A stretch of DNA of 64,000 bases from Pascua guehoae (lineage: Eukaryota; Basidiomycota; Tremellomycetes; Trichosporonales; Trichosporonaceae), in NCBI GenBank assembly GCA_001600415.1, contig BCJX01000016.1, positions 870,646 through 934,645 of the forward strand, written 5' to 3'. A program made the position numbers and the translations under genes. Numbering within the stretch: the first letter of the stretch is position 1; each line of letters starts with the position of its first letter. The notes below the pieces were generated by a model that saw only the letters and a list, made by a program, of their open reading frames with translations, did not search any database and had not been told where the DNA came from. Shown here in pieces: positions 824 to 46,663 of the stretch.

Positions 824-1441
824 GGGGGTGGTGGATGTGCCGCGTAATATCCTACATGGGTCATATGGGGAGCAAGCAGTGGCAGCTTACAGCTTACCGC
901 CTTCTGAAACCTGACAACCGGTGTTTGTCCACGACGGAACACGCGAGGTGATACCTTGATGCACTCCTTTGCCCTTATCTCCCCACTTCAGTATCGTTTC
1001 TTCTCCGCGTTCCAGTTGATGGGGTCATGTTTCACGGTATTCAAGCTGGGTTAACCTGTACGGATTGTTAGGAGGGGGGCCGGGGGCGCAGGGTCACATA
1101 TGTACGGGACTAGTGGTACGTTTTGCCAGTCGCCCACCGGGAGGCGACTGGCTTTGGTTGTAAAAGGTAGTGAGGGAGGGGCCCCAGGGGCCCCCCCCCC
1201 CCGGTCAAAACGTTTCGTCTCCTGTCTCCCTTGTGTTTTGCGTCACCCTTGCTTGTGTTTCACAATTAATCACGTGATCCACTCCGCCCATACCCCTCCC
1301 ACTCTCTGCCTGGTCGCGACTCCGCAGTATCCACCCATCCATCCTTCTCCCTCTTGTCCATCTATCACTCGCTGCGACAACCCACAAGTCCTTCCCATCC
1401 AACTACCTGCACGCTAGGCAACCTTCACAGCAGTCAACACC
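824..1441. other. Intergenic region between protease and F-box gene
   Basis: No coding potential seen. It holds one copy of the hairpin/G-tract repeat (1105-1204) and the presumed divergent promoters of the protease (-) and F-box (+) genes. A CCATCCATCC-type pyrimidine-rich tract precedes the F-box ATG. Confidence 0.5.
1105..1204 (+). repeat. Hairpin/G-tract element copy 1 (subtype A)
   Basis: It starts GGGACTAGT, has the hairpin CCAGTCGCC / GGCGACTGG around a CACCGGGA loop, then the tail GTGAGGGAGGGGCCCCAGG and a C homopolymer. The same layout recurs at 40031 and 44158. Here the stem carries an A-T pair where other copies have C-G or T-A. Confidence 0.8.
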
Positions 1442-3322
1442 ATGTCTCTGCTGTCATTGCCCGAACACGTACGGTCTACACCAACATGGCTTTGCTAACT
1501 GTACCAGCTCCATGCTCAGATTCTAACTGCGATTGGGCTCGACGACATAGCACAGCTGGTGTCAATGGCACAGACGTGCAAGTCATTCCACCACCTTATT
1601 TATGTGAGCATCTTTGGATGGTGCGTTCCACCTTCTGACGCCGTCGCACAGCACCAGCAAAGTGTCTGGAAAGCACTGCACCTCGCTCATTACGATGACC
1701 CGCGCCTCGCGTGCGCATTCCCCCACTCGCGCTCTGAGATTGACTGGCGCAAACGAGTTGTCGACCGGCACCGTGTCCTCAGGCTGTTCCAGAACCCCAC
1801 ACAGTTTCTGGGCTTCGACATGGACGAAAACGTGAGGTACCATTGGACAAGGAGAGTGTGCTTACCACCAGCGCGAATGGGCACCGGTCGTTTTTCCAAC
1901 ACTCCTCGACATGTACTACGACCTGCCTCCTCTTGGGACACCGTCTCTCAACGTTCCCATACTGGAACGTATAGCCGACCAGGAAGAGTACGTGTGGATG
2001 AACAAGTGTTTCCTAAGCTGTAAGAGTACAGACAGGCAGCTGTATGAGATGGCGCACCAGCTGCAAGTCGCTCTTTGGTACAAGGAGGAGCTTAGTGCCC
2101 GGGGGCGCAGCGTTCTGCATGCCTGGAAAGGCTATTTCAAGGTTGTGAGACGACAATCACGTAACGAAGACACTTGGGGCAAGAGTGATACGGATTGGGA
2201 AGATATTGCTTGTCCAGTAGCATTTGTGAGTCTCAACGAGGTGCCCCCGGGGGGGGGGGGGGGAGGAGGAGTTGCATGTGCAGCGTCTCCCACAGACGTT
2301 TGTACCTTTGGGTCGCCGCTGGAGGCTTTGTCCCAACTCCCGTGACTAGCCCCCTTCGCCTGTCGCCACCAGGAGGCGACGGGCTGCAGGTGGTGTGTCG
2401 CCTACGGAGGCTACAGAGAGACCTTGCCCCCTTGGTGAGGGAGGGGCCGCCTCCTCCCGTTGCCCCATTCTTGACTAACCGGACAGTCCCATCCCAGGAT
2501 TAGCGGGGCCGACACCAATATTTTGAGCGCCCTACAGGTGGACGAGCCCATTCCTGAACCCGAAAGTCGCTTTGCTCGTGGACTTGGCATCCTGGGCGCG
2601 GCGCGTCCGATTGCCAGTCACATGGTTTGGGACTGGGGCAATGTCACCGGCCCCTGGTACGTGCTTCGGACAAACCCAGCCGATGCGGTCGACGCAGTGA
2701 ATGGGCGCAAGTCTATGAAATTCATTGGCCTCCGTCGCGAGCAGGATCCCGTGCGGTTTGCACTGGTACCTGTGGTCGACTCGGACGCTATTGTCGCCGC
2801 ATACAGCGCACAGTTTGAAGGCACGACTCCCTCTGCCCACGACATCACGTCACCGAATTCGATTCTGCCCCGGGCATCGCTCGTTGCCGACCCACCCTTA
2901 CCCGCGATTTACTTTTATGGCCTCGAAAACCCGCCATCCTCTTCGCCATCTTCTGCAAATTCGTCCCACTTTATCTCTGGCGTCGTACATTTTACACGTG
3001 ACGACCCTCCCGAGGTTCGGTGGGACGTCGTTATCGAGTCACGCCGAGAGGAAACCCTCTTGCGTTTCCAGGGCGTGCAGCCAGGCGGTCGTGGGGGTAA
3101 CAGAGGAGTCGTCGGGGTATGTACTCAACCTGTTCAACATCGCTTGTCTCTGACCCATACGTGCAGGTGTACAAGCTATACGAGCTGTACGGACAAGCGT
3201 CATCACCACGAGCACCGAGGAGACGCAACCCAACCTTTGGAGGAGCAGTGCACGGCGGTATGCCGGAACCCTTTTTGGATGGGATTCTTCGTCTCATTAA
3301 GGTTCCGACTGAGACCGCGTAA
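1442..3322 (+). CDS. F-box domain protein (480 aa, six exons)
   Basis: Exons 1442-1468, 1508-1603, 1652-1831, 1872-2225, 2487-3116 and 3167-3322 join in phase to 481 codons. The N-terminus reads LSLPEHV, then LHAQILTAIGLDDIAQL and CKSFHHLIY followed by SVWKAL. This is the F-box pattern (LP.., L..L...V.C..., W), so a substrate adaptor of an SCF ubiquitin ligase is likely. The remaining 430 residues (for example GLGILGAARPIASHMVWDWG) show no recognisable repeat such as WD40 or LRR, so the substrate is unknown. Four introns are 39-50 nt. The fourth is 261 nt and carries a hairpin/G-tract element; its acceptor is placed by a good branch point (TGACTAAC) and frame. Confidence 0.82.
2243..2459 (+). 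repeat. G-run plus hairpin/G-tract element copy 2 (subtype B), inside an F-box gene intron
   Basis: A CCCCC(G)n run begins at 2243. The hairpin CCTGTCGCC / GGCGACGGG lies at about 2359-2384 (one T opposite G, allowed in RNA), followed by GTCGCCTACGGAGGCTAC, AGAGAGACCTTGCCCCC and TTGGTGAGGGAGGGGCC. It lies wholly within intron 2226-2486, in the same orientation as the gene. Confidence 0.85.
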
Positions 3323-3585
3323 CTGCTGTAGGTACTCGAGCCTCGCACGTACACACGAGCCACTGTCGCTCACTACAACAGTGAAGAGGAACGCCATTGA
3401 CTGCACCACGGTCACGCGTTCAGCCATTACATCACTTTCCTATGTACAGAGTGTCCATTTGCACAAGCGCCGCTCATCATTCGTTATCCTTCTTCATCAG
3501 CGAGTGTCCATCGACCAGTCGCAATAGTATTACAATTGTCCTTGTGTGGCGAGCGATTCGGGGCGTCTTGAGGGTCCAGACGCTA

Positions 3586-4279
3586 CTAGACCTGCGTCGT
3601 CGTCCACTGTTGGTTCGTGTTGCCGGGGAAGCACTGCCAGTACTGCGGCACGTTGCCCGCGTTGAGGTTGCCGTTGGTATTGTCGAGGCAGTAGACTAGT
3701 GTAAGTGAGTAGTTCCCTTCGCCCGTCGCCTCCTGGAGGCGACGGGCTTCGGTCGGTGTGTGTACTCACAGTCGACGTTGGCCGGGGGAAGTTCACCGTC
3801 TTTGCCAGTGGTCTGGAAAACACCGTCGTGGCGATTCCACACAGACATGCCGGGGCTCAGGTCTGCCCCACAAGGCAGGGTCTGCATGGGTTTACCGTTG
3901 CCGGGGAACCATCCGCGGAGCTCGTCTTGTGGTCAGAAAGGCACCATAGCGAAATGACTCACTGAGACCACCAAAGACACAGTAAGAGGTGTCGGACGCC
4001 ATCTGGACATGGGTCATGCCCTCGCCGACGAACCAGTTCTGGAGCACGTTGCCCGAGCTGCATGGCTGCCTGCACAGTTAGCAGAGTGCGACAGTAGTGG
4101 AAGACTCACAGGGTAACCGAGACACGGTTCTTGTAGTTGGTCGCTGCCGTGAGGCACATACACTCGTTGCCTTGGGGGTGAATCTGGACCTTGACAGGGG
4201 CACGCTTGTCGAGGTCGACAGGGGAGGCGGTGGCAGCCGCCGCGAGGAGAGTGAAGATGACGGTGGGAGCAACGAGCAT
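3586..4279 (-). CDS. Secreted ricin B-type (beta-trefoil) lectin-like protein, about 180 aa
   Basis: The ATG at 4279 opens a signal peptide (MLVAPTVIFTLLAAAATAS) followed by a KR that could be a Kex2-type site. Four exons joined by 36-74 nt introns give a Cys-rich chain with CMCLTAATN, LQPCSSGN, YCLDNTNGN and the terminal QQW. These CLD..G and QxW motifs characterise ricin-B/carbohydrate-binding trefoils. No catalytic A-chain or protease domain is present, so extracellular sugar binding is the likely role. The last intron (3696-3769) is almost entirely a hairpin element. Paralogous in type, but not closely, to the lectin at 21774-22343. Confidence 0.75.
3715..3760 (+). repeat. Hairpin/G-tract element copy 3 (hairpin only), in a lectin gene intron
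   Basis: A perfect palindrome: CCCGTCGCC / GGCGACGGG with a short TCCTGGA centre, then GGCTTCGGTCGGTGTGTG. Lies in the 74-nt intron 3696-3769, antisense to the gene; the second hairpin and tail are missing. Confidence 0.8.
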
Positions 4280-13849: not shown

Positions 13850-14109
13850 AGAACCGCTAATTTGGGATACACGTGTTGGTAGAGAGTAGCGATTGGTCAC
13901 ATGTCGCAATGGCCTAGGTATTCGGTAGCGCACACGGTTAAATCGATAGAATGTATATCATGAACAACAGTTTCAAGGTAGCAGTGTGTACAGAACACGT
14001 TGCAGTGAAAGCTGCGGCGCAAACGGCCAAGCGGAGATGCCCCGCGGCGTTGCAAGGTGGGACGACATTGCAATGTCGCGATCAAGCAACTTGTCCAGTG
14101 CAAGTACTG

Positions 14110-14314
14110 TACAAGTGTCCGATAGGACATGAGACTACCGCATTAAGCTCTGGTACGCACACGACATCGTGCGTACACAGGACGGCGAGCAGGATGCAAC
14201 AAGCAGGAAACATCAGTGTGTCCACTTGCCACGCCATTGCATTGGTCTAGAGAGTGTGCATGGGCAACTTTGAGCTCAAAGAGCCAGTCTCCACACTTTC
14301 CGGACGCACCTGTA
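14110..14314 (+). mobile_element. TA-flanked MITE copy a (Tc1/mariner-like ends)
   Basis: Starts TACAAGTGTCCGATAGGACA, ends CTTTCCGGACGCACCTGTA. Internal landmarks shared with three other copies: GGATGCAACAAGCAGG, CACTTGCCACGCCATTGC and TTGGTCTAGAGAGTG. About 205 bp with TA at both ends; no coding capacity, so non-autonomous. Confidence 0.75.
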
Positions 14315-17819: not shown

Positions 17820-19604
17820 ATGCTGTGTGGTGCAAGATGTATTCCCCCTCCCAACTCTGGTTTGTCAGCCATGCCCGTGATGCCCAGCAACGAACAAAGT
17901 GGCGAACGACCACCTCGACTCGTCACCACTGGGCTCCGCTCGTCACCGAGGGCTGTTTGCGTCGACGCGACCGACGACAACCCACTCATGACTCCTCAAT
18001 CAGCAGATGTGATCCGCTCGGCGGACGACCAACGCCAGGAAGAACTGGCTGCCCGTCCCACGCCTCTGGCGCGAAGGAGCAGCGATCTCGACTACGAACC
18101 CGACGCCCCACGCAGTATCCGAACATCACACTCGTCCTCCTCATCGACGCCAACGTCGTCGCCACCAGATCGTTCCATCCTGCTCCCGCAGCTTCCCGAG
18201 CTTACTCGCTCCACATCCACCGTCGATCCCTCATCCGCACAGCACTTGCCTCGTACCCCGACAAGTACGACAGGCCCCAGCATCTTGCCACGGTCATCGT
18301 CATTGCCATCGTCGGTGCAACGGGGTGGGAGCGGCGAGTTTGAGGACAAATGGCGGACTCGAGACGGACATGTTCACAGCCGCCCAAGCAGTCATCGCAG
18401 CAGACACTCTGTCTCGGGTAGCACAATCGACGCCACAATTGAGCGTGTCGACAGCTTGGCGGCGGATGACGCGTCAGAATGGGAGGACATTGTCGACGAC
18501 GAGGACGCCAATGTGAACCCTCCACCAGATGCCAACGCCCCACCAGCGTGGACGTACGAAATGCCCACGCGGAGCATGGTACGCGACGCGGCCGAGGTTA
18601 CCATCACGGACGAGTGGGGCGAGGCAATCCCGTTTGGAGACCTGCTTCCGGGCTCTGCAGCACATTTGTGTGCCAGTAACGATGGAGAAGCACCATCGCG
18701 GCTCGTCGTCTTCTTTATCGGGCACTGGTGGTGCGGCCTCTGCCACGACTATGCCCTTGCATCGGTTGCAAAGCTGTCACCAGCCGCGCTCATCCGCGAC
18801 GGCGTCCAGGTCATCCTCGTGTCGAGCGGCTCGTGGAAGGTGATTGCAAAGTATCGCGCCATGTTTCACGTTCCCTATCCCGTGTATGTCGACAAGGGGA
18901 CACGCCTGTTTCGCGCGCTCGGCATGCGCCAAGCAACGCCGAATCCCATTGTCGAGGCGAGGCTCAAGAATCGGCCAAGCTACCACCGACACATGTTTTT
19001 ACGCCAGATGGTCACTGGTATGGTGGTGCGTCTTTCGTTGTGATTGCTGGAGCCGGGGGCGGGGGTTGGGGTAGGGGCGATGGGGAGGAGGGGGTGAGGC
19101 CTGACGCCTCACGTAGTGTGACTCTCTGTCGCCGCCGTAAGGCTACCTGCACCAAGCCCCCCAATACTAGCCCATCGCCCCCGGAAAGCAACATGCGTGC
19201 CCCAACGTTGTGCTGACCTCTGCAGACTGGCGTTTTCCGGCTCGGCGGCATCCAGTTCAAGAACCCGGGCAGCTTTACCCAGCTCGGTGGCGAGTTTGTC
19301 TTTTCGTCGGGGTTCAAGTGCGAGTTTGCACACAGGATGACAGGCCGCGGAGGTGAGTTGCTCTCTTTTGCACATTGATTGTGACTCACACAAAGACCAC
19401 TGCGAAGCGCCCGATGTGCTCCAGGCTGTGGGCGTCGACAGCGGGCTTGGCGCGCCGGTGTGTAATATGTCGGAGGGCAACGACAAGGAGAAGAACCAGT
19501 CGCTAAAGACGCGCTTACGACGCAACCGAGCGCGAAAACCGTCGTGGGGTGGTCAGTCTGGGGTTACAGCACACAAGCCTGTGGAGTATAATGTGGGGAT
19601 GTAA
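17820..19604 (+). CDS. Peroxiredoxin-like/thioredoxin-fold protein (AhpC-TSA_2 type) with long disordered N-terminus
   Basis: The first 230 residues are Ser/Pro/Arg-rich and look disordered. They are followed by a thioredoxin-like domain: RLVVFFIGHWWCGLCHDY with a CxxC-type centre (CGLC), GVQVILVSSGSWKVI and VPYPVYVDKGTRLFRALGM, matching fungal PRXL2/AAED1-like proteins. Introns: 19026-19225 (200 nt, holding a hairpin element) and a short one near 19353-19398. Last exon: APVCNMSEGNDKEKNQSL, then a basic tail and stop 19602-19604. The start is uncertain: ATGs at 17820, 17871 and 17880 are in frame. Probable redox role; no substrate known. Confidence 0.72.
19081..19190 (-). repeat. Hairpin/G-tract element copy 4, in an intron of the thioredoxin-fold gene
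   Basis: On the minus strand: a degenerate first hairpin, GGGCTAGTATTGGGGGGCTTG, GTAGCCTTACGGCGGCGAC, AGAGAGTCACACTACGTGAG and a G-rich end. Entirely inside intron 19026-19225, antisense to the gene. Confidence 0.7.
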
Positions 19605-19924: not shown

Positions 19925-21343
19925 ATGTCCGCCACTGACATTACGATCCGCGTCTCCGGCGGCGAGCTGCGCGGCAGCGTCGACAAGGGTATTCGCCGTT
20001 TCCTGGCCATTCCGTACGCCGCCACACCCTTTGGCGAACACCGTTTCGAGCCTCCTCAGCCACCCCTCCCGTGGAGTGGCCAGCGCGACGCCACCGCGTT
20101 TGGCCCCACGGCGCCGCAGCGGCCCTACCCTGGACGCATTGGCAGCCTCTTGGACACTGTGGAGATTCCGGGCCAGGACATTCTCACGCTCAATGTGTGG
20201 ACCCCAGTCGAGGCGGCGGCAGCGCCGGTGGTCATGTGGATTCACGGTGGTGCGCTCGAGCACGGCACGTCGGCCATCAACGTCTACGATGGCACGGCCT
20301 TTGCGCGCGATGGCATCGTGTTCGTTAGCATCAACTATCGTCTCGGCACCGAAGGGTTCTCTGTCCTTGAAGGCGTCAAACTAAACCTGGGCCTCAGGGA
20401 CTGCGCCGCTGCTCTCAAGTGGGTCCACGACGAAATTGCGGCGTTTGGTGGCGACTCGAGCAAGATTACACTCATGGGCGAGTCGGCCGGCGGCATGATG
20501 GTGGCCGCTCTGCTCTCTCGACCCTCGAGCCGCCCTCTCGTCGCGCGCGCCATCATCCAAAGCGCGCCCCTCGAAGCCAAACCAACCCACGCCGCCGCCA
20601 AACCGACGCACGGCATCACAAAGGTCCTCGGCATCCCTGCTACGGGTGCTGCCTGGCGCGAAAAGACGCCCGAAGAGCTCCTCGAGGCACGTGCGCAGGC
20701 CATGAAAGGTTGGACTGCGCTGTCGCACAAGTTACTGTACACGCTCGCTCTCGATGAGGAAGTCACAGTCTCGCCACACAAGGCGCTCGCCGACATTGAC
20801 ATTCCGATTCTCATCGGCAGCAACACGGAAGAATACCGTCTCTGGCTTACCGCGGACCAAATCGCCTCGATCAGTTGGGTCAAACTCTTTATTGCACGGT
20901 TGGCGTTAGGTATCCCATTCGCAGCGTCCATGGCGGTGCGACGCGCGTTTCCGGGGTCGAACAGTGGCCAGATCCTGGGTCAGCTCATCACCGAGTTGAT
21001 GTTCCGCAAACCGGCAATTGGCGTCGCCCGGCAAAAGAAGGAATCGACATATGTGTACGAGTTTGCGTGGCAGTCGCAGCTCCACGACCTCGGTGCCGCC
21101 CACGCACTGGAGATCGGGTTCGCTTTCGACGCCCTCGCGGCCCCGGGCGCCATTAAGATGGGCGGCCAGGATACCCCTCAAAAACTCGCAGACGAAATGC
21201 ACGGGGCGTGGGTGCGCTTTATCCGCACGGGCGACCCCGGCTGGCCTGCTTTCGGCTCTGAGCAGGTTACACGTGTGTTTGACACGACTTCGGAGACGAC
21301 GACACTGCGTCGTGCCAGCGTCATTGATGCCATGGGTCACTGA
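19925..21343 (+). CDS. Type-B carboxylesterase, intronless, 472 aa
   Basis: An alpha/beta hydrolase of the carboxylesterase/lipase family. Shows FLAIPYAATPFGEHRFEPP (N-terminal B-esterase block), EDCLxLNVWTP-like QDILTLNVWTP, the oxyanion-hole IHGGALEHGTS, nucleophile elbow GESAGGMM (Ser about residue 186), SNTEEYRLWL (Glu) and a C-terminal AAHALEIGFAFDAL (His). No signal peptide, so probably cytosolic, unlike most secreted fungal lipases of this family. At 472 aa it is shorter than fungal lipases (about 540) and nearer bacterial esterases; with no intron, bacterial ancestry is possible. Natural substrate cannot be read from sequence. Confidence 0.92.
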   Translation: MSATDITIRVSGGELRGSVDKGIRRFLAIPYAATPFGEHRFEPPQPPLPWSGQRDATAFGPTAPQRPYPGRIGSLLDTVEIPGQDILTLNVWTPVEAAAAPVVMWIHGGALEHGTSAINVYDGTAFARDGIVFVSINYRLGTEGFSVLEGVKLNLGLRDCAAALKWVHDEIAAFGGDSSKITLMGESAGGMMVAALLSRPSSRPLVARAIIQSAPLEAKPTHAAAKPTHGITKVLGIPATGAAWREKTPEELLEARAQAMKGWTALSHKLLYTLALDEEVTVSPHKALADIDIPILIGSNTEEYRLWLTADQIASISWVKLFIARLALGIPFAASMAVRRAFPGSNSGQILGQLITELMFRKPAIGVARQKKESTYVYEFAWQSQLHDLGAAHALEIGFAFDALAAPGAIKMGGQDTPQKLADEMHGAWVRFIRTGDPGWPAFGSEQVTRVFDTTSETTTLRRASVIDAMGH

Positions 21344-21773
21344 GGTCGTCAGAGGACCGCGAGGACTGCCGCCCGCCACACAGACGCCCTAATATAGTAA
21401 CGTTTTTGTGACATAGATGTATACAGCTACGACGTTTCACTGCCTTACCGCTTACTCATCGACGTTTGTGAGCTGACCACTCCACTGGGGTGCATTGGGT
21501 TTGCATTGGGTTTGAACTTTGTGAAGAACTGTTCACTCTGCATACTGCGTGTTTGGAATCTGGACTCGTCTCTCTGATACTATTGAACCGGCACCTCTTC
21601 GTATTGGTCGTTGCCCGCATACCTCGTGTAACCGGGAGCGTCCACGGGCCCTCACCAAGTTTGATTCTCTGTCGTCTCTGTAGGCGACCCTGACCACCCC
21701 CAGTGCTAGCCGGTCGCGATCCGGAAGGCAACGACGGGCGGAGACCAGTCCGTGACTTGCTCCTAGCCCCCAA
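21344..21773. other. Intergenic region between converging esterase and lectin genes
   Basis: Holds hairpin element copy 5 (21641-21739) and short direct repeats such as GGTGCATTGGGTTTGCATTGGG at about 21488. No gene. Confidence 0.5.
21641..21739 (-). repeat. Hairpin/G-tract element copy 5 (subtype B, decayed)
   Basis: On the minus strand: GCCCGTCGTTGCCTTCCGG, CACTGGGGGTGGTCAGG, GTCGCCTACAGAGACGAC, AGAGAATC, CTTGGTGAGGGCC. Order and spacing match the other subtype-B copies. Immediately 3' of the lectin gene. Confidence 0.7.
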
Positions 21774-28002: not shown

Positions 28003-30821
28003 TCAAAGCAGGACCAAATTCACAAGATCGAATGCGCCGACCGGGTCTGGTTGGGCGTTGCGCGTATTGTCGACCTCTGCATGCGACTGCTCCTCTGCCG
28101 AGAGAAGCCGAAGCAGCCGACGCAGAAAACGACCAACGAGGTCCATAGGCCCTTCGCAAGCCGGTGTACTGGCACGGTCGCAACAGGCAGATAGACGGCC
28201 AATGCAACGGACAACAAGCTCCCTTTGTGGAAGAGGCAGGTGGGCGCACATCTGCTGCAGTCAGCAAGGGATATATGCAAAGGAGAAGGTTTGATCGCTC
28301 ACCTTATGGCCTACAACGCCAAATGCCGACAAGTGGGTTGCGGCCGTGTCCTGCATGTATGTCATGCATCCCAAGTCCGAAAGGATTTCAGTCTGGGCAG
28401 CATATTGATTGGACAACTGTAGCCAGTCGACAACGATCAGGTCTCGCTGCTGGTCAGGACACACGTCAAGCATGAGAAACTTTATGCGTTGCAAGTTGTT
28501 GATATCGAACCACTTGAGTATGCTCTGCTCCAAGGGGGAGAACTTGCCGTGTGTTGGGTTGTCGGGAAACCAATGCTTCATGTGAAGCTCGGTCTGGGTG
28601 TAGATGTCGCTCAGAAGAGCCCAGGCCACGTCGTGGGGCATGGTGGTGTGCGTGCGGCACAAGCGGATAAGCATGGTATAGGTCGAGGCCGAGTTCAAGC
28701 TGCACGCGTGGCGCATGTCGCCCCCGTGAAAGCGGTCCGTCTCCTCGGCCCAACGCATGCACTGTGGTTAGTCTGTTGAGCTTATCTGTAGATTTGACCA
28801 ATGTCACTCCTCCATTTCCGCCACATACAGGTGCGTCCGAAAAGTCATGAGCCTACGCTCTGGTACGCATACGGTGGGCAGGGAGGCGCGAAGGGCATGT
28901 GGGATACAACAAGCAGGAGACACCAGCGCGTCCCCTTGCCATAGAGAGTGTCCACGTGCAACTTCGACTAGACCGAGCTCGAAGTGGCAATCTCAAGACT
29001 TTCTGGACGGAACTGAACTCGTAACTCGCCACCCCCCATACGCCTGGTGAGCCGAGGGCGGTGCATACGATGCTCCCCCTAGCAGGCACTCACATCGAGA
29101 CATTCCTCCAAGCGCATCGTTGGTGGAACGCCAAACACGTCGGCATAGATCCTGTCAAAGCCTGTGGTCAGACCAAAAGTCGCACACGTCGCTCACAGCT
29201 GAGAGCAAACCACGTGCGCTCGCCGTCTGCAATCACGCGCGCATCGTGAATGTTGTCTGGCAAGGGTGTCGTCCGTGGCACATGTAACCCGAGCTGGTAA
29301 CCAAGTCGGATTGCCACCGCCAACTTGACGCCAGCGGTACTGTCTGTCGGCTCCTTCCATGCCACCAGGAGTGTGAGCGCCTGGATCATTCCCAGGTTGG
29401 AATTGACGCCAGTCGAGAACGCCCTGTTGACTAGAGCGCGCGTGTGCGCCAGCAGTGATTGGTATAGGTGCGGCTGAAAGAACTGAGCCGCACGCATGAG
29501 GACGGCGGACAGTAAAGCCGAAGACGTCTCGCGCATGAAGTCGAGGGTATGTACTGTCGTCAGTGTCTACGCTATCACGTCGTACCGCCGTTCTGTGCTC
29601 ATCGGCAAAGGCCAAAACGTGTGGATCACTGATCGAATCAGGGGTTTCGTACTGGTATGTCCAGACGGAACTAATAGGACGACGACTGCCGAGACATCAT
29701 TATAAGGGTGTTTAGTGTAGTAGTGACACCTGCAGGAATCGACGTGCAATCCTCGGAACATCCAGTCCTTTTGGGCTCTCGTGCGACGCATACTCCGCCA
29801 CGTCCTCCTCGACCCCCCCCCACCCTCCCGGCGCAACTCCCAATACGTGGCGACGGCTACGGCCTGTCCGACAGAATCGGCAACTCCGGTTCACTCACGC
29901 TCTGGATCCAACAGGGCGAGGATTGGGTTGAGGTTGCGCATGAACCTGCAATCAGCAGCGTTTCCGTGAGTGTCCTTACTTTTCCACCAGGAGGTCCGCT
30001 TCGTTTGCCATTACCAGCCCCATCATAACTAATGTTAGCCTACTCCCGGCGCTAGGGGGCATTCGCCCGTCGCGACCGGGAGGCGACGGGCTTTGGGTGG
30101 TGGGTATGTCGCCTACGGGCGCGACAGAGGTCTTGCCCCTCATAGTGAGGGCGGGGCCTACGCCCGCCCTTCGCCCTTGTGACGATATATCGTGTCATTG
30201 TACGCACTGGGGTCGTCTTCTGCGTCAAAGCCAGCATGGTCAAGGTCCGCGCCCGAAGACGTGGGGCTTCCAGTTTGGCTTGGTGGACGAGTAATAGCGG
30301 GGTCCAGGTAATCCACAATGACGTGCGGACGAGGTTCTATTCGGCCTGCGCGGGGTGAGAGCCCGTGCCCGGGGATCGAGGACCGTGATCGATGAGACTG
30401 GGTTGATTCAGGATCGACAAAGGAGGTAGATGGAACAGAGCCCCGATAATGAGTAACGGTGCTGCGCGTCGCTGGTCGCGACTGGCCATGACTTGGAGGT
30501 TCCAAGCGTGTGCCAGCCGCACTGCCCCTGCTCCTCTTCCGGGCATAGACACATGCTATGTTTAGGCGTCCTAACGTTAGATTCGGTGGAAGGATACCAA
30601 GCATAAGACGTACGACAGCGATGGCATGGATCACGTTGTGATTCATTTCCCGCACATCGGGTCTTGTGTGTCAGAACGATAGCCCGCCCCACAGACGTAC
30701 GCGCAGCCGGCGACAAGCCAGACAACTGCGGGGTGAGAGACTATTCCTTCTGAAGAGACGAGGATCACTTTGCTCACGCAATCAAGTGTCTTTGCTGGCG
30801 CTTCCGTGGTGTGCCTTCCAT
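28003..30821 (-). CDS. Zn2Cys6 fungal transcription factor
   Basis: ATG 30821 (MEGTPRKRQQRHLIA) leads through three short introns into a complete binuclear zinc cluster: C-LA-C-RRLRTR-C-AGNESQRDP-C-HR-C-RRLNIA-C followed by VYARKRSRG. Then comes a Ser/Pro-rich linker (SFVDPESTQSHRSRS) and the fungal_trans middle homology region: FMRNLNPILALLDPELHTLD, SSALLSAVLMRAAQFF, AVAIRLGYQLGLHVP, WFALSCFDRIYADVFGVPP. It is a nuclear regulator; targets unknown. Three introns are long: 29946-30203 (hairpin element), about 29563-29918, and 28762-29093 (MITE inserted). The stop at 28003 is the simplest; a further intron could extend the end to about 27909 (MDDQMW). It neighbours the VAO/SDR pair, a candidate target set, but this is speculative. 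Confidence 0.82.
28826..29017 (+). mobile_element. TA-flanked MITE copy b, inside a transcription factor intron
   Basis: Starts TACAGGTGCGTCCGAAAAGT and ends CAAGACTTTCTGGACGGAAC. Shares GTGGGATACAACAAGCAGG, TTGCCATAGAGAGTG and CTAGACCGAGCTC with copies a and d. Lies in the 332-nt intron 28762-29093, which without it would be about 140 nt. Confidence 0.82.
30052..30173 (+). repeat. Hairpin/G-tract element copy 6 (subtype B), in a transcription factor intron
   Basis: GCCCGTCGC / GCGACGGGC hairpin, CTTTGGGTGGTGGGTATGTC, second hairpin GTCGCCTACGGGCGCGAC, AGAGGTCTTGCCCC, TAGTGAGGGCGGGGCC. Inside intron 29946-30203, antisense to the gene. Confidence 0.85.
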
Positions 30822-31442: not shown

Positions 31443-33559
31443 CTAAAGGTTGGCCTTCTGCCCGGCAACATGGGGTAGCGACTTGCGTGACGGGGACGAC
31501 TTTGCGTCAAGTTTCCACTGTGCCTTGTCGTACGAGGCCGGCCACACGCCATTCTATGATGTCAGCGCTGGGAGGTAGCGAGAGGATGGCCCACGGGGGT
31601 TGCTGCCAGGCTTCCCCTCAGTTCATTACTGACCTTTCCCGGAGCGAGAATACCGTTGGGGTCGATCGCGTCCTTGAGTGTCTCACTGAGGCGCATAAGA
31701 GCGTTATCGTTGAAACTGTACGTCCCTGCAATTTGGTCCATGAGAGCGAGATGCGTGCGGTACTCTCCCCAGCCCTGGGCAGCACAGTCGTCGATGAGCT
31801 GGCGGATGACGGCGAGCGCACGAGCACGGTCGCTGGCCTTTTTGCGGTCGTACACGACACACACAATGTTGTGCATCTCGCGCATGCCGATAATAAAGTC
31901 GACAATGACGTCGAACCCGGCTTCGATGAGACGCTTCTTGGTAATCTCAAACTGGAGCGTCGCAGCCTCGCCGCGAACTTCGCTAATGGGCGAGAAGAAA
32001 AAGTGGGCGCCGTTGGGGACCCAGTTGACCCATTGAAGCTCATCGTAGGTTGGGATGCCCCTCATCGTCTTTGCACGAATGTCGAGAACACTGGGGCTCG
32101 GCTTGCCATCCTCCTGGATATGAAACTTGGCGCCCTTGATAGTGCTAAAGCCAGCCTTGATGGCGCCCCACAGTGCGTTGCGAACGGGCTCGGGACCGTA
32201 AAGAGCGCCGTAAAAGTTCCACGCCCCGAGATCAAGCTTGCGCTGAATTCCCTTTAGCTCCTTGTCGTTCAGAGCACGGTCGGTTACACCAGGGCAGAAT
32301 GACTCTTTGTCGCCGAGCACCCCAGCGTCGAGCAACAGACTGCGGATAGTAGCGACGTTCTGGATGATCATGTTGATACGCAGCGAGCGGACCACCTCAA
32401 CAATGGCGGGAAGGTCGTCCTCGTTTTCAAACGTGATAGAGTACGCCTGATAGCCACCGGGGTTGGGCATCAGCCACAAGCCCACTAGGGAATGTCAGTG
32501 AGAGTTCCTGTCACCAACGCGGTACATACTCTTCACGACGATACCATAGTTGCTCTGCGAGAAGATGCCGTCGTGGTAGGGTCCGAAACCGTAGTTGAAC
32601 AGCTGTATCGAGTCAGAATCTATTCCACCACAGCGTTCTCACCTGCCAGCAGCGGTTCGGCTCTTGCTGATCAGGCGAGACGTTCTTGCCGCTGGATCCA
32701 GGCTGTGGCAGCGCACCCATTCCCGTGCGGACGAGCTCGCCGGAGGGAAGAACGATTTCGAGGCCACAGTGCATCTTATCTATTAGCATTCGAACACACA
32801 GACGGGACGAGGGCCTTTCGCACGTCGCCTCCCGGTGGCGACGTCCGAAGCCAGGCTTCGGGTGCTTGGGTGTCGCCTACGGAGACGACAGAGAGACCTT
32901 GACCCTTGGTGAGGACACCAACCACCCCCCCCCCCCCCCCCCCCTCCCCACCCCCGGGTCCGGTACACCATGCTCACCATAAAGTGGTCACCGTATGGCG
33001 AGTATCCAACGCCGCGCTCGATAGTGTTACCAATCACACTGCCACCACCGAGGTCTGGCACGTCAATCCACAACTTGTCGTCGAGCCCTGTTTTAACCAA
33101 ATGGTCATACAGTCCCTGGAACGTCACACCAGGCTCGACGAGACAGTAGGCGTCCTTTTCGTTTACCTCGAGCACACGGTCCATGTGCTTGCCCATGTCG
33201 ATGCCCACCGAGCCGGGCACACGCGGCGCCGCCCCTCCGTAGCCAATGTTGCGGCCAATGCTAAACGGCCAAACGGCGACCTTGAACTCGTTGCTGAGGC
33301 GCATGAGTGCCTGGACTTCGGGAACATTGCGCGGGGCGACGACTGCCGAGGCAACAAAGTAGTCCTTGTCAAAGACGGGGTACATGTCGTGCTCTTTGGC
33401 GGGGTCCATGTAGTCGTCCTTGACAAACTGGTGCTCGCCGACGATGACGTCGACATTGGCGTCGCCGACGATCTGGCGGGCTTTGGCAAGGTAGGCTGCA
33501 AAGGTCTGGGCATTGAGCCCAGGCGGGAGAATGAGCGGCTGTGGTGAGGCAGGCGACAT
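31443..33559 (-). CDS. Vanillyl-alcohol oxidase-type FAD flavoprotein
   Basis: Oxidises para-substituted phenolic substrates in characterised relatives (vanillyl-alcohol oxidase, eugenol oxidase, 4-cresol hydroxylase). The PCMH-type FAD domain reads GRNIGYGGAAPRVPGSVGID, CLVEPGVTFQGLYDHL, DVPDLGGGSVIGNTIERGVG and YSPYGDHFM-MHCGLE...RTGMGALPQPG. The cap/C-terminal half has EYRTHLALMD (Tyr-Arg pair matching the VAO active site), FNDNALMRLSETLKDAIDP and NGILAPGKNGVWP, the normal family ending. About 560 aa from ATG 33559 with no signal peptide; four introns. The first (32775-32977) is 203 nt and carries a hairpin element with a long C-run; its acceptor was placed to give FM-MHCGLE. Diverges from an SDR gene, so a joint phenolic-alcohol pathway is plausible. 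Confidence 0.9.
32810..32957 (+). repeat. Hairpin/G-tract element copy 7 (subtype B) with C homopolymer, in a VAO gene intron
   Basis: CACGTCGCC / GGCGACGTC hairpin, CCAGGCTTCGGGTGCTTGGG, second hairpin GTCGCCTACGGAGACGAC, AGAGAGACCTTGACCC, TTGGTGAGGACACC and then more than 20 C. Whole element within intron 32775-32977, antisense to the gene. Confidence 0.88.
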
Positions 33560-39896: not shown

Positions 39897-40550
39897 ATGA
39901 TAGTTGCTCGTCATGGGCCACCGCCATGCAACTCGGTCGCCCGTCCCAACGCAAAGCGAAGGCACCGTGTCCGCGTGGATGCCCCCTCGTCCAGCTCCCC
40001 AATTGACAGCTACGACCTCGGTATAAGGCTATTCCCGGGACTAGTGGTGATTGTGCCTGTCGCCCACCAGGAGGCGACAGGCCTAGGTTGCAGAGCGAGT
40101 GAAGGAGTGGCCCCAGATACATATACCGAGGAAGAATGCCGGCCGCAGGCTTACAGAGGACATGGGACACAGCGAACGCGGGTTGCGAGTAGACAGTGCA
40201 ACATTGCTCTAGCAGTTGGCAAATAGTGACTCTTTCTTAAATTTGGCCGCTTCGTGACCAGTCTATTATATAAAGCAAAGATGCTCGAGATAAACTATGT
40301 GGAAGCTGCGTGGCTACTGCGCGGGGGGAAGGAGACGGAGAAGGATTGTGTGTGTGGGGTGCGGGGGGGCAGGTGTTTGGTGGAGAGGAGACGTGAGATG
40401 AAAGGGTGGGTCTGTGTTGAATTTCTTTAGCACCCTGCAAATTCTTTGTCTTTTTCGTTTGCACGGACAGGCTTCATAGCTGTAGAAATGTAGATGCTGC
40501 CTCATTCCAAGTCACGAGACACGTGTAACTTCTTTACAACAATCAACCTC
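39897..40550. other. Intergenic region with hairpin element
   Basis: Between converging genes. Contains element copy 8 (40031-40115) and a GTGTGTGGGGTGCGGGGGGG-like G-rich stretch near 40350. Confidence 0.5.
40031..40115 (+). repeat. Hairpin/G-tract element copy 8 (subtype A)
   Basis: CCCGGGACTAGTGGTGATTG, hairpin CCTGTCGCC / GGCGACAGG with CACCAGGA loop, TAGGTTGCAGAGCGAGTGAA, GGAGTGGCCCCAG. Stem position 3 is a T-A pair here. Confidence 0.85.
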
Positions 40551-42765
40551 TTACACGTGATCAAGCTCGTCTAGCTCGGCCCTCGCGTCATCTCCTCCGA
40601 GAGTCCTCGCGCGATCTTCCAGGTCTGTGAAGAACAGTTTGAATGCCTGCACGTTGTCAGTATGGTGTATCGAGTAGCCCACAGACCTCGTCCTGGTAGC
40701 CCTGCTGCTCCATCCACTCGTTGACAGTGTCAAGGTCGCCCTCGTCTGGTAGGTCGCCACTGTCTCGGATAATCTCTACACGCCGTGCCGTCTGGCGACG
40801 ACGCCTAGCTCCCTTGTCCTGACCGAAGCGGCCTTGGTTCCCATCTTCACTAGACGTATCGCCACCGGAACCAGCTTCCGCGTCGTCTGAACCCTCGCTA
40901 TCGTCAGAGTCATCGGATAACTCGATGCCTTTTGCTCTGAGCAGGTCATGGTAGTGGCGCTGCACGCAGAGGAAGAGGTTGTGCTCCCAGTGTGAAAGGG
41001 CGTGAAATAGACGGGACGAAGCCATGCAGTGAGGGCCTGGTTGTGAGCAACCCGTTCTCCCTGCCAAGGGGCTCACCCATGAACAACGGTCCAACTTCAT
41101 CGGCCACGGACTGGTTATCGTCCTCGTCGGAGCGCTCGTCGTCGTCTTCGTCGTCATCCCCGTCCGACTGTGTCGATTGGCCATCACCGTCCAGCGGCGC
41201 ATGCGACTCTGGGTTGTACGGAGTGCCCTTGAGGGTCACCGCATCCCAGCAGTGTTGATTTCTGCGGTTGCAGGCATCACAGTAGGTCTGCTTCTCCGGC
41301 AAGCGAAAGCTCTGTGTCTTTAGTAGTGGCCGGACCACAGTCAACTCACGATAAAATCAGGGTACTTTTCCATTGCCTCGACAAATTCCAGCCGCCAAAT
41401 TTGGCTACGGACACGGAGGTTGCGAATACCCCGGAGAAAGTCACGCAGCTCGAGAACCGGGTGCATGTGCTTTTTATTCGCGCCTCGGAGCGGCAAAACG
41501 TCGGGCCCGTTGATTACCAGCAGGAGGAGATACTGGAACACAACCTTGAACTTGTACTCTTTCGACTGTGCGTAACCGAGAGAAAACTTGTCCGGGAGCA
41601 GGTTGGAGTCAAACTCGTCGCCATCGTCGGTAATGAAGCCATCAGAGTCGCCGGCCACATACACCCAGTCGGTTTGTTCAACGGCCTCAGCTTGGTCTTC
41701 CTCTTCGGTGTCGGGAGTATCAATGTTCAAACGACGGTTGCGCAGCTTGCGAAGCATCCGCTGCTGTGCGGTCTCGGTGCGTTGCCGTAATCGCGTCGAA
41801 GTCTCGAATCGCTCAGGCTCGTCCAACTGCAGGACGCTAGCATCTTCGTCCTCGGTCTCGGCGGCAACGTTCTCCTCTTCGTCTGGGTCGGCGTATCGCT
41901 GCTTGGGACTCCTGGGTGCCTTTGCGGCTCGCCGGGTAGCACGGCCTCGGCCTCGAGGCTGTTGCACTGCCTCGTCTTGACCATCGTCAATAAACGCGTC
42001 ACTTCGGTTTGCGCCAACGACATTCTCCTCTTCGTCTGGATCGGCGTATCGTTGCTTGGGGCTCCTTCTGGGTGCCTTTGCGGCTCGCCTGGCTACACGG
42101 TCTCGACCACGAAGCCGTTGTTGTGGTGGCTCGTCTTCATCGTCGTCAATAAACGCGTCACTGTCGTTTGCGCTGTTGGAAGCCACGTTGTCGTCGCTCG
42201 AGGAAAGCACCTCGCCAAGCCGCCTCATACGGTTGCGACGAATGAGACGCTGGCTCAGAGTCTCCTGCGGACGTCGGAGTCGAGAAGCCGGTGGCAACTC
42301 CACCACGCTGTCGTCGATGTCGCCATCCACGCTCTGAGCTTTGCCCTTGCCTTTACGCCAGCGCGTTGCGGGGGGTATGCGCGTTGGAGCAGGGGCGTTG
42401 TTACTTCGGGCTCGGGTGCGGGCCGATGGTGGTTGATTGTCGGAGCCATCGGAGGGAGACGAAGCTTTGCGCTTGGAGGGCGTTGTGTGTGTCTTTCTGC
42501 GGGTCGACCTCCGTACGGTGCTGAGAGCTGTCTCGTCACCCGCACTTCCAATCGTGACAGCTTTCTCGCTCCTCGCATCGTCGTCAGAGATGAGGGGCTG
42601 CGTGCCATTTGAATCATTCGCACGGTGCGGGCGAGGTCGCCGTCTGGATGGCCGCGCCGACGGCGGCCCCGATAGCGAGCTTGGGCCAGCCTGAGGATGC
42701 CCCTCGCCCGGGTCGTCCGAGTCGCTTATCTCTATGACATGAACCGCGTTGTAGAGGCGCGACAT
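40551..42765 (-). CDS. DUF4211-like nuclear protein with internal duplication
   Basis: ATG 42765; four exons (first 1.4 kb) to the stop at 40551. The N-terminal half is disordered, rich in Asp/Arg/Ser (VIEISDSDDPGEGHP, with an SDSDD patch) and basic clusters suggesting a nuclear chromatin-linked protein. The C-terminal domain reads FKVVFQYLLLLVI, LRVRSQIWRLEFVEAMEKYP, CDACNRRNQHCWDAVTLKG, GPLFMG-PHCMASSRLFHALS and HWEHNLFLCVQRHYHDL. This CDAC...C...H-HW arrangement fits the DUF4211 family. About 48-50 residues are duplicated in tandem (SDAFIDD...SPKQRYADPDEEENV). Ends LEDRARTLGGDDARAELDEL. Function unknown. Confidence 0.72.
41865..42175 (-). repeat. Tandem duplication within the DUF4211-like coding region
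   Basis: Two copies of about 150 nt encode SDAFIDD(D/G)...RAAKAPR(R)SPKQRYADPDEEENV. Both DNA and protein are similar, so duplication is fairly recent. Confidence 0.85.
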
Positions 42766-43400
42766 GGGTGGTAAAGGGGCAGAGGTATAACGTGACGAGG
42801 AGTGTTGCTGAACAAGGGACGGATCGAACGGAATGGGTGTTGGCTTTTTGAGTCTGACACGAGAAACAACAACATGGCACGAATGACGCGACCGTGGGCA
42901 TTTGAGAATTGAGTGTCGTCATTGCCACGTGGTGCTGACAGCGGAGGTATTTTGAAACGCACCAAGGCCTGCAGCTTGCAGCCTGAATATGTGGCCATGC
43001 GACACTGAAACGCAACTTCTCCATACCCCGAGGCGATCCAAGGAACATAGTATGATGACTGTTCATTGTCTACTGATAAAGCAAAGACCATAGTTGAACC
43101 TCAGAAGAGTAGAACGCCGGCAACGAATAACATCCAGTGTGAGGTGGCATGGGTGCTGGTGGGTGACTAGGTGACGAGGTGACTAGGCGACCACGGTAGT
43201 GCTGCGAAATACAAGAAGGGCGAACAGGAGAAATGGATGCATACATATGGCGCCTTTCGGGGTTGTAAATGGTTTGTGATCCTCTTGCAGTCGACCGAAG
43301 GGTGTTGGTGTGGAGATGCGGCAATGAAGAAACTGACTCGTGGGTGTTGGATGCAGGCGGCACGCGGAGACTGGCGGGACAGTGGCAAGGGGGAATACCT

Positions 43401-43517
43401 GGGACTTGTCCTTTGCCCGTCTCGCCCCGGGGAAGGCTTCGGGTGGTGTGTGTGTGGGTGTCCCCAGAGAGACCTTGCCCCTTGGTGAGGGAGGGGGGCC
43501 CGGGGGGCCCCGTTCCC
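43401..43517 (+). repeat. Hairpin/G-tract element copy 9 (subtype B, first hairpin decayed)
   Basis: TTTGCCCGTCTCGCCCCGGGG, GGCTTCGGGTGGTGTGTGTG, TCCCCAGAGAGACCTTGCCC, CTTGGTGAGGGAGGGGGGCC, then CGGGGGGCCCC. The tail is nearly identical to copies 2 and 7. Confidence 0.8.
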
Positions 43518-44041
43518 TGGTGCCGATAGGGTTGCGCAAGATAGACGTTCGAGCCGATGGGGGTGTAGCGCGTGTAGCAAGGTGGCGAGGCGATGTATGT
43601 GGTAGAAGACTAGGCTATACATTCGCCGAGCGTATCCACAAGTACAAGTGGTCCCTTATATACCATCGCCGTCAGGCCCAGGGTTGAGGGTGATGCACGC
43701 GGGGATCACGTCGTGAACGGGTTCGGTTGCCGAACCAACTGCTTTCGTTATGAGGGAGTGGAGCGGGCATCACACATCCCGTGTCAAAAGAGTGAGGGGT
43801 TAAGGGAAGCGGTGGACACGGATGAACCCGAAGTGCACCACACAACGGGGGAACCGCACTGGAGTCGAGGGCACCCGAACACCTGTACATTCAGTCAGCC
43901 ATGCTTGCACAGTGGTCGTGTACAATAATTAAGACTTGCCATCAACAGAGTTTCTTGTTCATGATCGAAGCCTATGACGAGCCAACGTGCGATGCAAGTG
44001 GGACTTCAGGGAGAGTTGGGGATGAATATTGGGGGTATCTG

Positions 44042-44135
44042 TTGAGGCGACGGCCCCCCGGGAGGGCGTCGCCTTTTAAACTGTTTGGGGAGTTGGCCCG
44101 GCGCCCCTGGGGGGGGGGGGGGGGGCGCCGAGGGG
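44042..44135 (+). repeat. Hairpin/G-run element copy 10 (variant)
   Basis: TTGAGGCGACGGCCCCCCGGG followed by AGGGCGTCGCC, a stem of GGCGACG / CGTCGCC, then a run of about 17 G bounded by GGCGCCCC and GGCGCCG (itself a palindrome). Directly before copy 11. Confidence 0.6.
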
Positions 44136-44157
44136 TTTGCACTGGTGGACTCTGACT

Positions 44158-44261
44158 ATTCCCGGGACTAGTTAGGTTTGTGGAATTTGTGGCCTGTCGC
44201 CACCGGGAGCGACAGCCTTGGGTAGAAAGGCGAGTGAGGGAAGGGCCCCAGGGGCCCCCCC
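44158..44261 (+). repeat. Hairpin/G-tract element copy 11 (subtype A)
   Basis: TTCCCGGGACTAGTTAGG, hairpin CTGTCGC / GCGACAG, TTGGGTAGAAAGGCGAGTGA, GGGAAGGGCCCCAGGGGCC and C-run. Closest to copies 1 and 8. Confidence 0.82.
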
Positions 44262-44305
44262 AGTCATGCATGCTCACCGGCTACGACACTTGTCGACACG
44301 GACGG

Positions 44306-46024
44306 TTAAACCCCAAAACGGCGGAGCCGGGGGTACGGCGAGTCGTCGGGCGTAAACTTGTCGAGGTCTGATTGGAGCTGGGCGGCAACGAGCTCGTCCA
44401 TTTCGGTAGGAGACACGGGGACATACATGGCCGCGTCCTCCAGCGTGCACTCCAGCGCCTCGACATTCAGGGTTCTCTCCCTGTTCCTCTTATTGTTGAC
44501 CGATTCGTTTACCGTCAGTCGCTCGCCCCCCAGCGCCTGCTCCAAGATTTCCAGACCAAGCTCGGTGGGAAGGCCTGCACCCGTGAGCCCGCGCACGGTG
44601 GCGTCGGTCATGTCTTGGAGTAGACGGTCCTGTAGGGGCGTGGACATGCGCTTGAGCGCTCCTGTACGGTCCAGGCTGGCAAGGCGGACAGCCGCCGCTG
44701 CACCGAATGTCATATAGGTTTGAAGGGCGGCGAGGTCAACCGTGGCCTGATTGTCGACTTGTCCGGCTTTCCGCTCGTCAGATGAGACGGAATTTACAGA
44801 CGGAAACCGGGGCCGCGGGATACGGTCCTGTGTGAGGCTCCACGGCAGACGGTTGAAGGCGCGTGACGTTTGCAGCTGCGAGTATGGGACCGCCGGCCGG
44901 GTCTGGATGGTGTCCGGTTGAGACTGGGAAGCGGGTAGGAGCTCGACAGCTACCCGGTTGGCGCCCAGGACGTAAAAACGGGCGAAACGAGTGCACACCA
45001 GTGCCGACGCGTAAACCGTACCAAACATTTCATGTGTTGCTAGCAGCTGGAAGACTGTTTGACAGAGTGCGATGCGAGTCATGGTTGCCAACTCGTCCTG
45101 GGTACCCAGCGCGAGTTTAATGTCGGTGGCACGACAGTCTTTGAAGCGCGAATAGCCGATGGGCTGGAAACAATGTCAGCGGGCACTGGGCGGTTAACCT
45201 ACCACTCCGTTAGGATACCTCGCTGTCATAAACAGAGCGTTCGGGTCGCCGAGCCGCTCGAGGGCGGCTTCCATCATTGCCCGCGGCACCCAGAATTGCT
45301 CTTGTGGGGAGAGCTCGGAGAACAGCTTGGTGTCAATGTCCCACTCACGGACGCATGCGAACGGCCCGCGAATGACATTGGCAATGCCCTCTAGCACGGA
45401 CCACGTGGGAGGGTCGTCGACAAAGCCGTCTTTGTCCTCCGACGTCCGAGTCGCGCCCTCGTCATTGTCATTGCGACCATTCTCTGGGCACGTCGTTTGG
45501 GCAAACAGGGCAAAGTCCAAGCTTGCGAGCGTGCGTTGGGCGAGGGGTCCGTTGACGCTGCTCTCGACAGTGGCCGCATGGGAGAGGTAACGTTGGAAGA
45601 CGTCGGTACTGGAGAACGGAACACTCCCAAGGGCATGGAAGAAGCTGAGAGGTGCACTCCAGTCGTAGAAGAGTCTGTGATCGCGGCCCCTCTCAAGCGG
45701 TTCACCGTTGTCGTGCAGGATGATTCCATACTTGGTGTAACCGGTGATTTGCTCTTGCACCGCCTCGAGCGTCAACCGCAAGAACCCGGTCAAGTCGTTC
45801 CCCCTCCAGGGCTCGTCGGGGCCGTCGTGGGGGAATGGGTTGCCCTGTAGTTGCTTGCTCAGTTCAGCCTTGAGCTTGTCGTGGATGTCGGGAGTCGCCT
45901 GGGCCCATTCGCGCGCAGAGAGACGGACGTTGCCAACGTCGTCTCGGGCGAAGCCGGCAAATGACTTTGGGGGTGGTTTGCCAATGGTAGCGTGGAAGGG
46001 GGCTACCGATGTCGGAGTGGTCAT
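44306..46024 (-). CDS. Hypothetical protein, 559 aa, two exons
   Basis: Exons 45203-46024 and 44306-45162 (GTAGGT donor, CCAG acceptor) join at NGV-PIGYSRFKDC. ATG 46024 (MTTPTSVAPFHATIGKPPPK) is the first in frame after a stop-free but non-coding leader. The sequence is acidic-neutral and globular: REWAQATPDIHDKLKAELSK, WRGNDLTGFLRLTLEAV, RLFYDWSAPLSFFHALG, then MTRIALCQTVFQLLATHEMF. The C-terminal part has Arg-rich segments and ends FTPDDSPYPRLRRFG. No signal peptide, transmembrane helix or known domain recognised. Codon use is normal for the window. Similar in style to the 498-aa protein at 53732-55228, with no clear homology. Confidence 0.65.
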
Positions 46025-46663
46025 GGTGGGTGATGCGAAAAGGGGTGACAGCGGTGCATAGGTGAGGTTATAAGAGTTGGTCAGGCAGTCATGGTACGTT
46101 CGGATGACGGACTCGTACCACACTCCGTGCCCTTATTTCAACCTCGTCCATCGGCCACACAACTCACTCCGTTTTTGCTCCTGAAGTGCTTGTGTAGAGA
46201 CTTGAGCCTCGAGTGCACGCGCTGTCGCGGGTACGCTGGGGCCGCCGTGCGCACTCGATTCGTGCACCCGGGACTGGTCCTTGGCCCGTCGTCCCCGGGA
46301 GGCGACGGGCTTGGGGTGGTGGGTGTGTATGTCACCTACGGAGGTGACCGCGAGACCTTTCCGCTTGGTGAGGGAGGGCCACAGCCTCCCCGCCCACCCC
46401 CCGGGTCACTCTATCACTCACGCCAACAGCATGCACCGAGTTTTGCGTAGCCAGAATGGCAGCGTCTTCGTGTGATGGGCTGTGCGTGTTGTGTGAGGTT
46501 TGGGGCGGTGTGTGCCGTGTGTGGTTACTGTAGTGCGCTCCGCGCCCGCGCATACACTCCAGCCCTGGCTAGCCCGGAGCACTCTCCCAACGCTCGTCAG
46601 CCCCACACCCCCCGAGGAGCGGCAACGGCGACGGCGACGCCGCCACCGTACGCCTCCAGCACG
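46025..46663. other. Intergenic region before the tRNA
   Basis: Contains element copy 12 (46267-46404) and CG-rich sequence. No gene. Confidence 0.45.
46267..46404 (+). repeat. Hairpin/G-tract element copy 12 (subtype B)
   Basis: CCCGGGACTGGTCCTTGG, hairpin CCCGTCG / CGACGGG with TCCCCGGGAGG loop, TTGGGGTGGTGGGTGTG, second hairpin GTCACCTACGGAGGTGAC, CCGCGAGACCTTTCCGCTTG, GTGAGGGAGGGCC, then C-rich. The second stem is GTCACC/GGTGAC, a compensated change from GTCGCC/GGCGAC. Confidence 0.88.

Follow-up and report, generated by a model that had tools for sequence, protein, structure and literature searches.

Diverged palindromic hairpin repeats, double-hairpin-like in layout, found in one neighbourhood of a fungal nuclear contig

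When short hairpins recur with compensatory changes in their stems, the question arises whether they are a structured RNA held by selection on pairing or a mobile element that depends on its palindromes. We addressed this question in the window, the whole stretch of 64,000 nucleotides that was analysed (C16:870646-934645), which is part of a genome of 33.6 Mb in 28 contigs. C16 is a 1.01-Mb contig with ordinary fungal genes, two of which have putative introns. An earlier note on this DNA had grouped 12 hairpin sites into one family. All 12 were present on re-reading, and 11 of them belong to what we call family A, but the site at 44042 is a member of a second family, family B.

The hairpin repeat family A is real. 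Its hairpin core GTCGCCNNCNGGAGGCGAC, with up to three mismatches, has 16 matches in the window versus 1.32 expected from shuffles, a count that takes in both strands of the palindrome and a few unrelated matches. Independent support comes from a profile built from nine window copies, which found six other copies (E <= 1.7e-4): four new ones beyond the window (E 3.1e-22 to 4.2e-6) and, inside it, copies 4 and 5. A covariance model of the sort that the earlier note had proposed (R1, 13 copies) recovered the family, listing its own 13 copies together with three weaker ones (E 9e-5 to 0.0064), but not site 44042, which scored 10.7 bits (E 2.6). Because those 13 copies built R1, the R1 scores of 13 of the 16 copies are partly by construction. 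Profile and covariance model covered C16:770646-1014063 (243 kb), and C16:1-770,645 and the other contigs were covered by DNA searches and patterns. Altogether, family A comprises 16 copies (three of them weak) in the 243 kb of C16, and 11 of these lie in the window. Rows on the opposite strand of a palindrome were counted with their copy; two fragments from the profile search were left out (E 0.037 at C16:844.6 kb; E 0.43 at 852.3 kb), and covariance-model matches with E >= 0.23, some of them on either side of the segment, were dropped as chance. When the whole window was compared with the Rfam covariance models at gathering score, no match to the hairpin family was obtained, the sole match in the window being a tRNA at 46664. 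This tRNA gene (46664-46752, plus strand) lies ~250 bp past copy 12, and ARAGORN assigned it no anticodon.

Units of family A are ~80-160 bp long and rich in palindromes, and they occur in two forms, a classification that leaves out two weak copies, copy 4 and the one at C16:832 kb. The short form (copies 1, 8, and 11 and two upstream copies) reads, with losses, (TATT)CCCGGGACTAGT, hairpin 1, a GGGTTGTAGAG-like spacer, GTGAGGGAGGGGCCCCAGGGGCCCC, a C run, and often GGTC. The long form (copies 2, 5, 6, 7, 9, and 12 and two upstream copies) has an additional hairpin 2, GTCGCCTACGGAGGCGAC with AGAGAGACC, so that its order is hairpin 1, hairpin 2, and the tail GTGAGGGAGGGG. The second hairpin, previously given as common, is thus present in the long copies but not in copies 1, 8, and 11, which have neither hairpin 2 nor AGAGAGACC, and copy 3 is approximately hairpin 1 alone. 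The tail described as shared proved not to be so: AGAGAGACCTTGNCCCTTGGTGAGGGAGGGG, with up to three mismatches, matches one place in the genome only, copy 9.

The short copies in the window are copy 1 (1103..1206, plus strand), made up of a CGGGACTAG block, hairpin 1, a GC palindrome, a C12 run, and GGTC; copy 8 (40033..40112, plus), in which the GC palindrome is lost; and copy 11 (44160..44262, plus). The long copies are copy 2 (2339..2465, plus); copy 5 (21644..21753, minus), which is diverged and was found at E 1.5e-7 by the profile, outside its build; copy 6 (30047..30175, plus); copy 7 (32803..32962, plus), with a C20 run; copy 9 (43397..43520, plus), in which hairpins 1 and 2 are partly deleted; and copy 12 (46266..46410, plus), the rightmost copy found. 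In the covariance model, of whose build they are part, E values were 4.7e-14 for copy 1, 1.5e-23 for copy 2, 3.5e-21 for copy 6, 1.4e-8 for copy 11, and 3.6e-22 for copy 12. Copy 3 (3702..3765, plus) is truncated to hairpin 1. Copy 4 (19107..19196, minus), noted earlier at 19081, is a member but a weak and decayed one (26.5 bits and E 1.6e-4 in the covariance model, E 1.7e-4 in the profile, and in neither build). Single-strand DNA folds of 11 copies gave z from -5.0 (copy 3) to 0.0, with -3.7 for the two hairpins of copy 1 and values weaker than -2 in four, namely copies 9 (0.0), 2 (-1.0), 11 (-1.6), and 12 (-1.9). Copies 1 and 11 and the L019 copy fold as hairpin 1 plus the GC palindrome, and copy 8 retains hairpin 1 alone. 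Copies 5 and 9 have broken stems, as does hairpin 2 of copies 2 and 7.

Family B, found by self-comparison, consists of a GGCGAC...GTCGCC palindrome, a spacer, a GGCGCC palindrome, and a G/C run, a double-palindrome layout that was read from the alignment alone. Its window copy, which had been counted as copy 10, lies at 44036..44130 on the minus strand, carries a G17/C17 run in the second palindrome, and scores E 5.6e-19 in the family B profile, of whose build it is part. Five others were used for the same profile (L022:4855-4966, L022:6728-6794, L023:4080-4180, and, on the minus strand, L020:4072-4178 and L018:4490-4606), and a seventh, outside the build, was found at C16:837.9 kb (E 1.5e-11). 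Family B therefore has seven copies in the 243 kb, located within C16:795-915 kb. Two genome-wide DNA searches recovered four of the seven and none elsewhere; because only these four were recovered, the confinement of family B is less certain.

The span of family A is C16:832-917 kb, ~85 kb of the 33.6-Mb genome. Left of the window, the last strong copy lies ~31 kb away and a weak one ~38 kb away; on the right, the family ends near window position 46.4 kb. The copy at C16:832 kb is the weakest (E 1.1 in the nine-copy profile, 0.0064 in the covariance model), and dropping it leaves 15 in a span of 77 kb. When the whole genome was searched with DNA queries (copies 1, 2, and 12 and two upstream copies) and with three patterns, 12 of the 16 copies were returned and none outside C16:840-917 kb; one of the patterns gave 13 matches at seven places versus two for the reversed control. 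Because the remaining four copies are too diverged for these searches, diverged copies elsewhere could be missed. Unlike families A and B, a MITE-like repeat in the same window (~210 bp, ends TACAGGT...ACCTGTA; 57596-57766, 14169-14273, 28879-29015, and, on the minus strand, 51645-51783) is genome-wide: it has 188 genome candidates, of which the best 40 were scored, and these lie on 15 of the 28 contigs. By eye, the repeat at 57596 is like a mariner MITE. In its tree, three copies from the segment intermix with four from outside, with mostly low support. Confinement to a single area is unusual for a jumping element, as dispersed repeats normally spread genome-wide, and about two dozen diverged copies of two families in one 120-kb area would mean either that copying reached only nearby sites or that the segment was transplanted. 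A Mantel test on 13 copies showed no relation between the distance of their sequences and that on the map (r -0.16, P 0.92; with log distance, r -0.05, P 0.65). This is evidence against stepwise copying over short ranges within the segment and lends no support to copying between near neighbours.

The segment that holds the elements is not unusual in composition. Its GC content is 0.56-0.59, and both GC and tetranucleotide composition resemble the flanks. Foreign or contaminant DNA is less probable in view of this ordinary composition and of the intermixing of the genome-wide MITE-like repeat. For a siroheme-synthase gene in the segment, the best named match is Vanrija pseudolonga (63%), followed by Cutaneotrichosporon (62 and 61%), with two matches at 64% ranking above Vanrija. 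Vanrija and Cutaneotrichosporon are genera of the Trichosporonales. A mating-type region as the setting was rejected on the basis of STE3 only: a genome search for this pheromone receptor (PF02076) placed both matches on C5 and none in the element segment.

Several other features of this part of C16 are recorded here in their own right. A carboxylesterase gene forms a single long ORF at 19925-21343 (plus strand); among the best 120 of its 7601 matches, those named by organism are all bacterial, mostly Microbacterium, at 54-59% identity, and the ORF is a candidate for transfer from bacteria. Two tandem units of ~155 bp lie within a DUF4211 ORF at 41867-42173. A ~200-bp repeat starting TTGTTGGAATA occurs at 52725-52927 of the window, at C16:945466, and at C16:993311, is 91-95% alike across the three places, and by eye looks like solo LTRs. 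Among the local repeats, C, D, and E resemble tRNA genes, and F resembles solo LTRs, again by eye. At C16:983903 and 986931 (L012 and L013), there are a C69 homopolymer and a C run followed by N-interrupted Cs.

We next consider how the copies sit in their surroundings. The element ends of family A are blurred, without a sharp boundary. Terminal inverted repeats were not detected in 14 of the 16 copies (6.6 nt for a copy's own flanks versus 6.4 nt for mismatched flanks); the exception is copy 8, which has a 10-bp inverted repeat frame (CCTCGGTATA/TATACCGAGG) that has no counterpart in 13 other right flanks. Nor were target-site duplications detected in 14 of the 16 copies (own 4.9 nt versus 5.0 nt), a comparison made on old copies with uncertain ends. 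Copies 2 and 3, the two examined for introns, both lie in putative introns whose splicing leaves the frame open. Copy 2 sits in a putative intron of 261 nt (2226-2486), on removal of which one frame opens, all three unspliced frames having stops; in this one of the two copies examined, the donor GTGAGT lies 113 nt upstream of the element, to be compared with introner elements, which bring the splice sites of new introns with them. The gene around copy 3 is on the minus strand, so that the copy is antisense in its putative intron of 74 nt (3696-3769). Insertion is suggested because these two copies sit in putative introns and the flanks are unrelated. In orientation, the 16 copies form four runs (P 0.013, for a pattern that was noticed before testing).

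Because the case for an RNA had been built on stem changes, we re-examined the pairing. The stem pairs quoted earlier were confirmed (A-T in copy 1; C-G in copies 3, 6, and 12; T-A in copy 8; T opposite G in copy 2), as was the two-sided change in the second stem of copy 12 (GTCACC/GGTGAC). Across 13 copies, two of 17 stem pairs change on both sides, a number reached in 164 of 500 column shuffles. Other measures lean more towards pairing: the same set has five cells with two-sided changes (reached in 12 of 500) and 91.0% of cells pairing compared with 88.8% in shuffles (reached in 16 of 500), and its covariation score was reached in 15 of 500; these column shuffles ignore the relatedness of the copies. 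Under a tree-aware null of our own design (Fitch states, substitutions reshuffled per branch, 500 replicates, 13 copies, with the row of copy 5 simplified), one of 10 hairpin 1 pairs passes, with E 0.03 over the 10 pairs and 0.9 over ~300 column pairs. Overall, the covariation signal in family A is weak and consists of one strongly varying hairpin 1 pair and one hairpin 2 pair in a single copy.

Template switching can create such compensatory changes, according to the accessible parts of PMC8794818 and PMC8604942, and those of PMC8604942 also describe arm homogenisation and spacer inversion. Because template switching between arms can make them, compensatory stem changes are no proof of RNA selection, and the claim that covariation here implies selection on pairing is not supported: the number of two-sided pairs is often matched by shuffles, one pair passes the tree-aware null, and template switching can produce such changes. 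Copies 3 and 7 carry marks that appear to be of this kind (n = 2, with the direction of change inferred without an outgroup). Five other copies have the loop ACCGGGA; copy 7 has its reverse complement, TCCCGGT, between flanks in the usual orientation, so that its central loop would have been inverted. Ten letters, TCCGAAGCCA, are also added beside hairpin 1 of copy 7, and eight of them are the reverse complement of the adjoining GGCTTCGG; this putative snap-back insertion forms a new 8-bp hairpin with neighbouring sequence common to three other copies. The stem of copy 3 has 12 perfect pairs, where copy 2 is mismatched, as if its arms had been homogenised.

We consider it very improbable that family A is a structured RNA family, in which every copy would be transcribed and selected for pairing. 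Stem columns are indeed the more conserved (0.83 and 0.79 versus 0.67 elsewhere), the per cent paired and the covariation score are seldom reached by shuffles, one stem pair covaries under the tree-aware null, and copies 1 and 3 fold strongly. However, such an RNA would have to be reconciled with the lack of an Rfam match at gathering score, with the broken stems, with folds weaker than -2 in four of the 11 copies folded, and with copies in both orientations, one of them antisense in a putative intron, and the double changes are equally expected from template switching. Of the two options that the earlier note had offered, a mobile element dependent on palindromes is the better reading, and the hint of a functional RNA is weak. 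One such element would be of the cut-and-paste kind, hopping over short range from one founder whose transposase was later lost. This would place every detected copy on one contig segment, as found, but it is improbable given that terminal inverted repeats and target-site duplications were undetected and that similarity does not decay over map distance. A tRNA-derived SINE, an idea that came by eye from the CTAGTGGT stretch, and a Helitron, an idea raised by the hairpins, were set aside.

It is possible, though at well under an even chance, that family A is a dead non-autonomous DNA transposon (a MITE or foldback element) in a block from another lineage, brought in by introgression or as a fused small chromosome, and widespread in that lineage. 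Edges with well-mixed copies inside, as in the Mantel result, fit a transplanted sample, and two separate families share nearly one segment. The left edges of A and B are nevertheless unequal (832 versus 795 kb), GC and tetranucleotides are like the flanks, and the MITE-like copies inside the segment intermix with those outside, mostly at low support. The siroheme-synthase matches are expected of a native segment, and also of one from a related donor; by our own arithmetic, a donor of similar size with 16 copies per 85 kb would need ~6,000 copies. The reading that we prefer, to which we give about an even chance, is a fossil palindromic nuclear insertion element, double-hairpin-like in form, that was copied by way of replication or repair in one neighbourhood. 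It would be an element of a Trichosporonales-like basidiomycete, at ~80-160 bp too short to encode its own transposase. During replication or repair, its hairpins would fold in the single-stranded DNA, and copying would be coupled to these processes, through template switching or break repair, and would not depend on a transposase acting on terminal repeats. The stem arms would be kept matched by recopying of one from the other, not by RNA selection. In favour of this reading are the confinement of the detected copies, the second double-hairpin family in the same area, the marks in copies 3 and 7, the higher conservation of stem columns, the orientation runs, and the failure to detect terminal repeats and duplications, with two copies in putative introns suggesting insertion; the missing decay of similarity with map distance and the inverted repeat around copy 8 count against it. 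Fork- or repair-coupled copying is our best guess for the mechanism. A bolder form of this proposal, which we regard as unlikely though worth stating, is a nuclear class of mobile double-hairpin elements that would multiply only in cis, by transposase-free template switching within one replication or chromatin neighbourhood of ~100 kb, with A and B as two of its families. For repeats in general, the results carry a warning that compensatory stem changes may be mutational and not evidence of a functional RNA.

Finally, we compared family A with known systems. MITEs are short, have no room for a transposase gene, and occur as intergenic and intronic copies. Family A is also short and has copies in putative introns, but it is without detected terminal inverted repeats or target-site duplications, and the MITE-like repeat of the window is genome-wide. 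A literature search over titles and the starts of abstracts, with few subscription journals, brought up no comparable hairpin family from a fungal nuclear genome. The earlier statement that no family with this layout has been described holds for the sequence, in the searches made, but not for the layout, which resembles mitochondrial double-hairpin elements (DHEs) and GC clusters. DHEs were reportedly described by Paquin et al. in 2000. As presented in the available portion of PMC10085805, they occur in fungal mitochondrial DNA (Allomyces, Schizosaccharomyces) and are short, GC-rich, mostly intergenic, thought to be mobile, and made of two neighbouring hairpins; according to the excerpt of PMC2800124, the Allomyces elements were reported without flanking duplications. 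Two adjacent GC-rich stem-loops are likewise seen in the folds of copies 1 and 11 and the L019 copy, but family A resides on a ~1-Mb contig with intron-bearing genes and not in a mitochondrial genome, and its units of ~100 bp with G/C homopolymer runs lie in one stretch. Yeast mitochondrial GC clusters, in the part of PMC4478555 consulted, are palindromic, GC-rich, and transposable element-like, and diverge by substitution and merger; they differ in being mitochondrial and in having putative target-site duplications, none of which was detected here. The hairpin elements of sponge mtDNA similarly form several structurally distinct families with no adaptive function known, but they are mitochondrial and scattered across the intergenic regions of the organelle (PMC2800124, same excerpt). 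Template-switch mutation at inverted repeats shares with family A the arm homogenisation, the spacer inversion, and the compensatory double changes, but the accessible parts of PMC8604942 and PMC8794818 concern mutation at single inverted repeats and not the spread of a repeat family. Because family A is nuclear, it is no member of the mitochondrial DHEs or GC clusters; these nevertheless appear to be the closest layouts, and family A may at most work like them.
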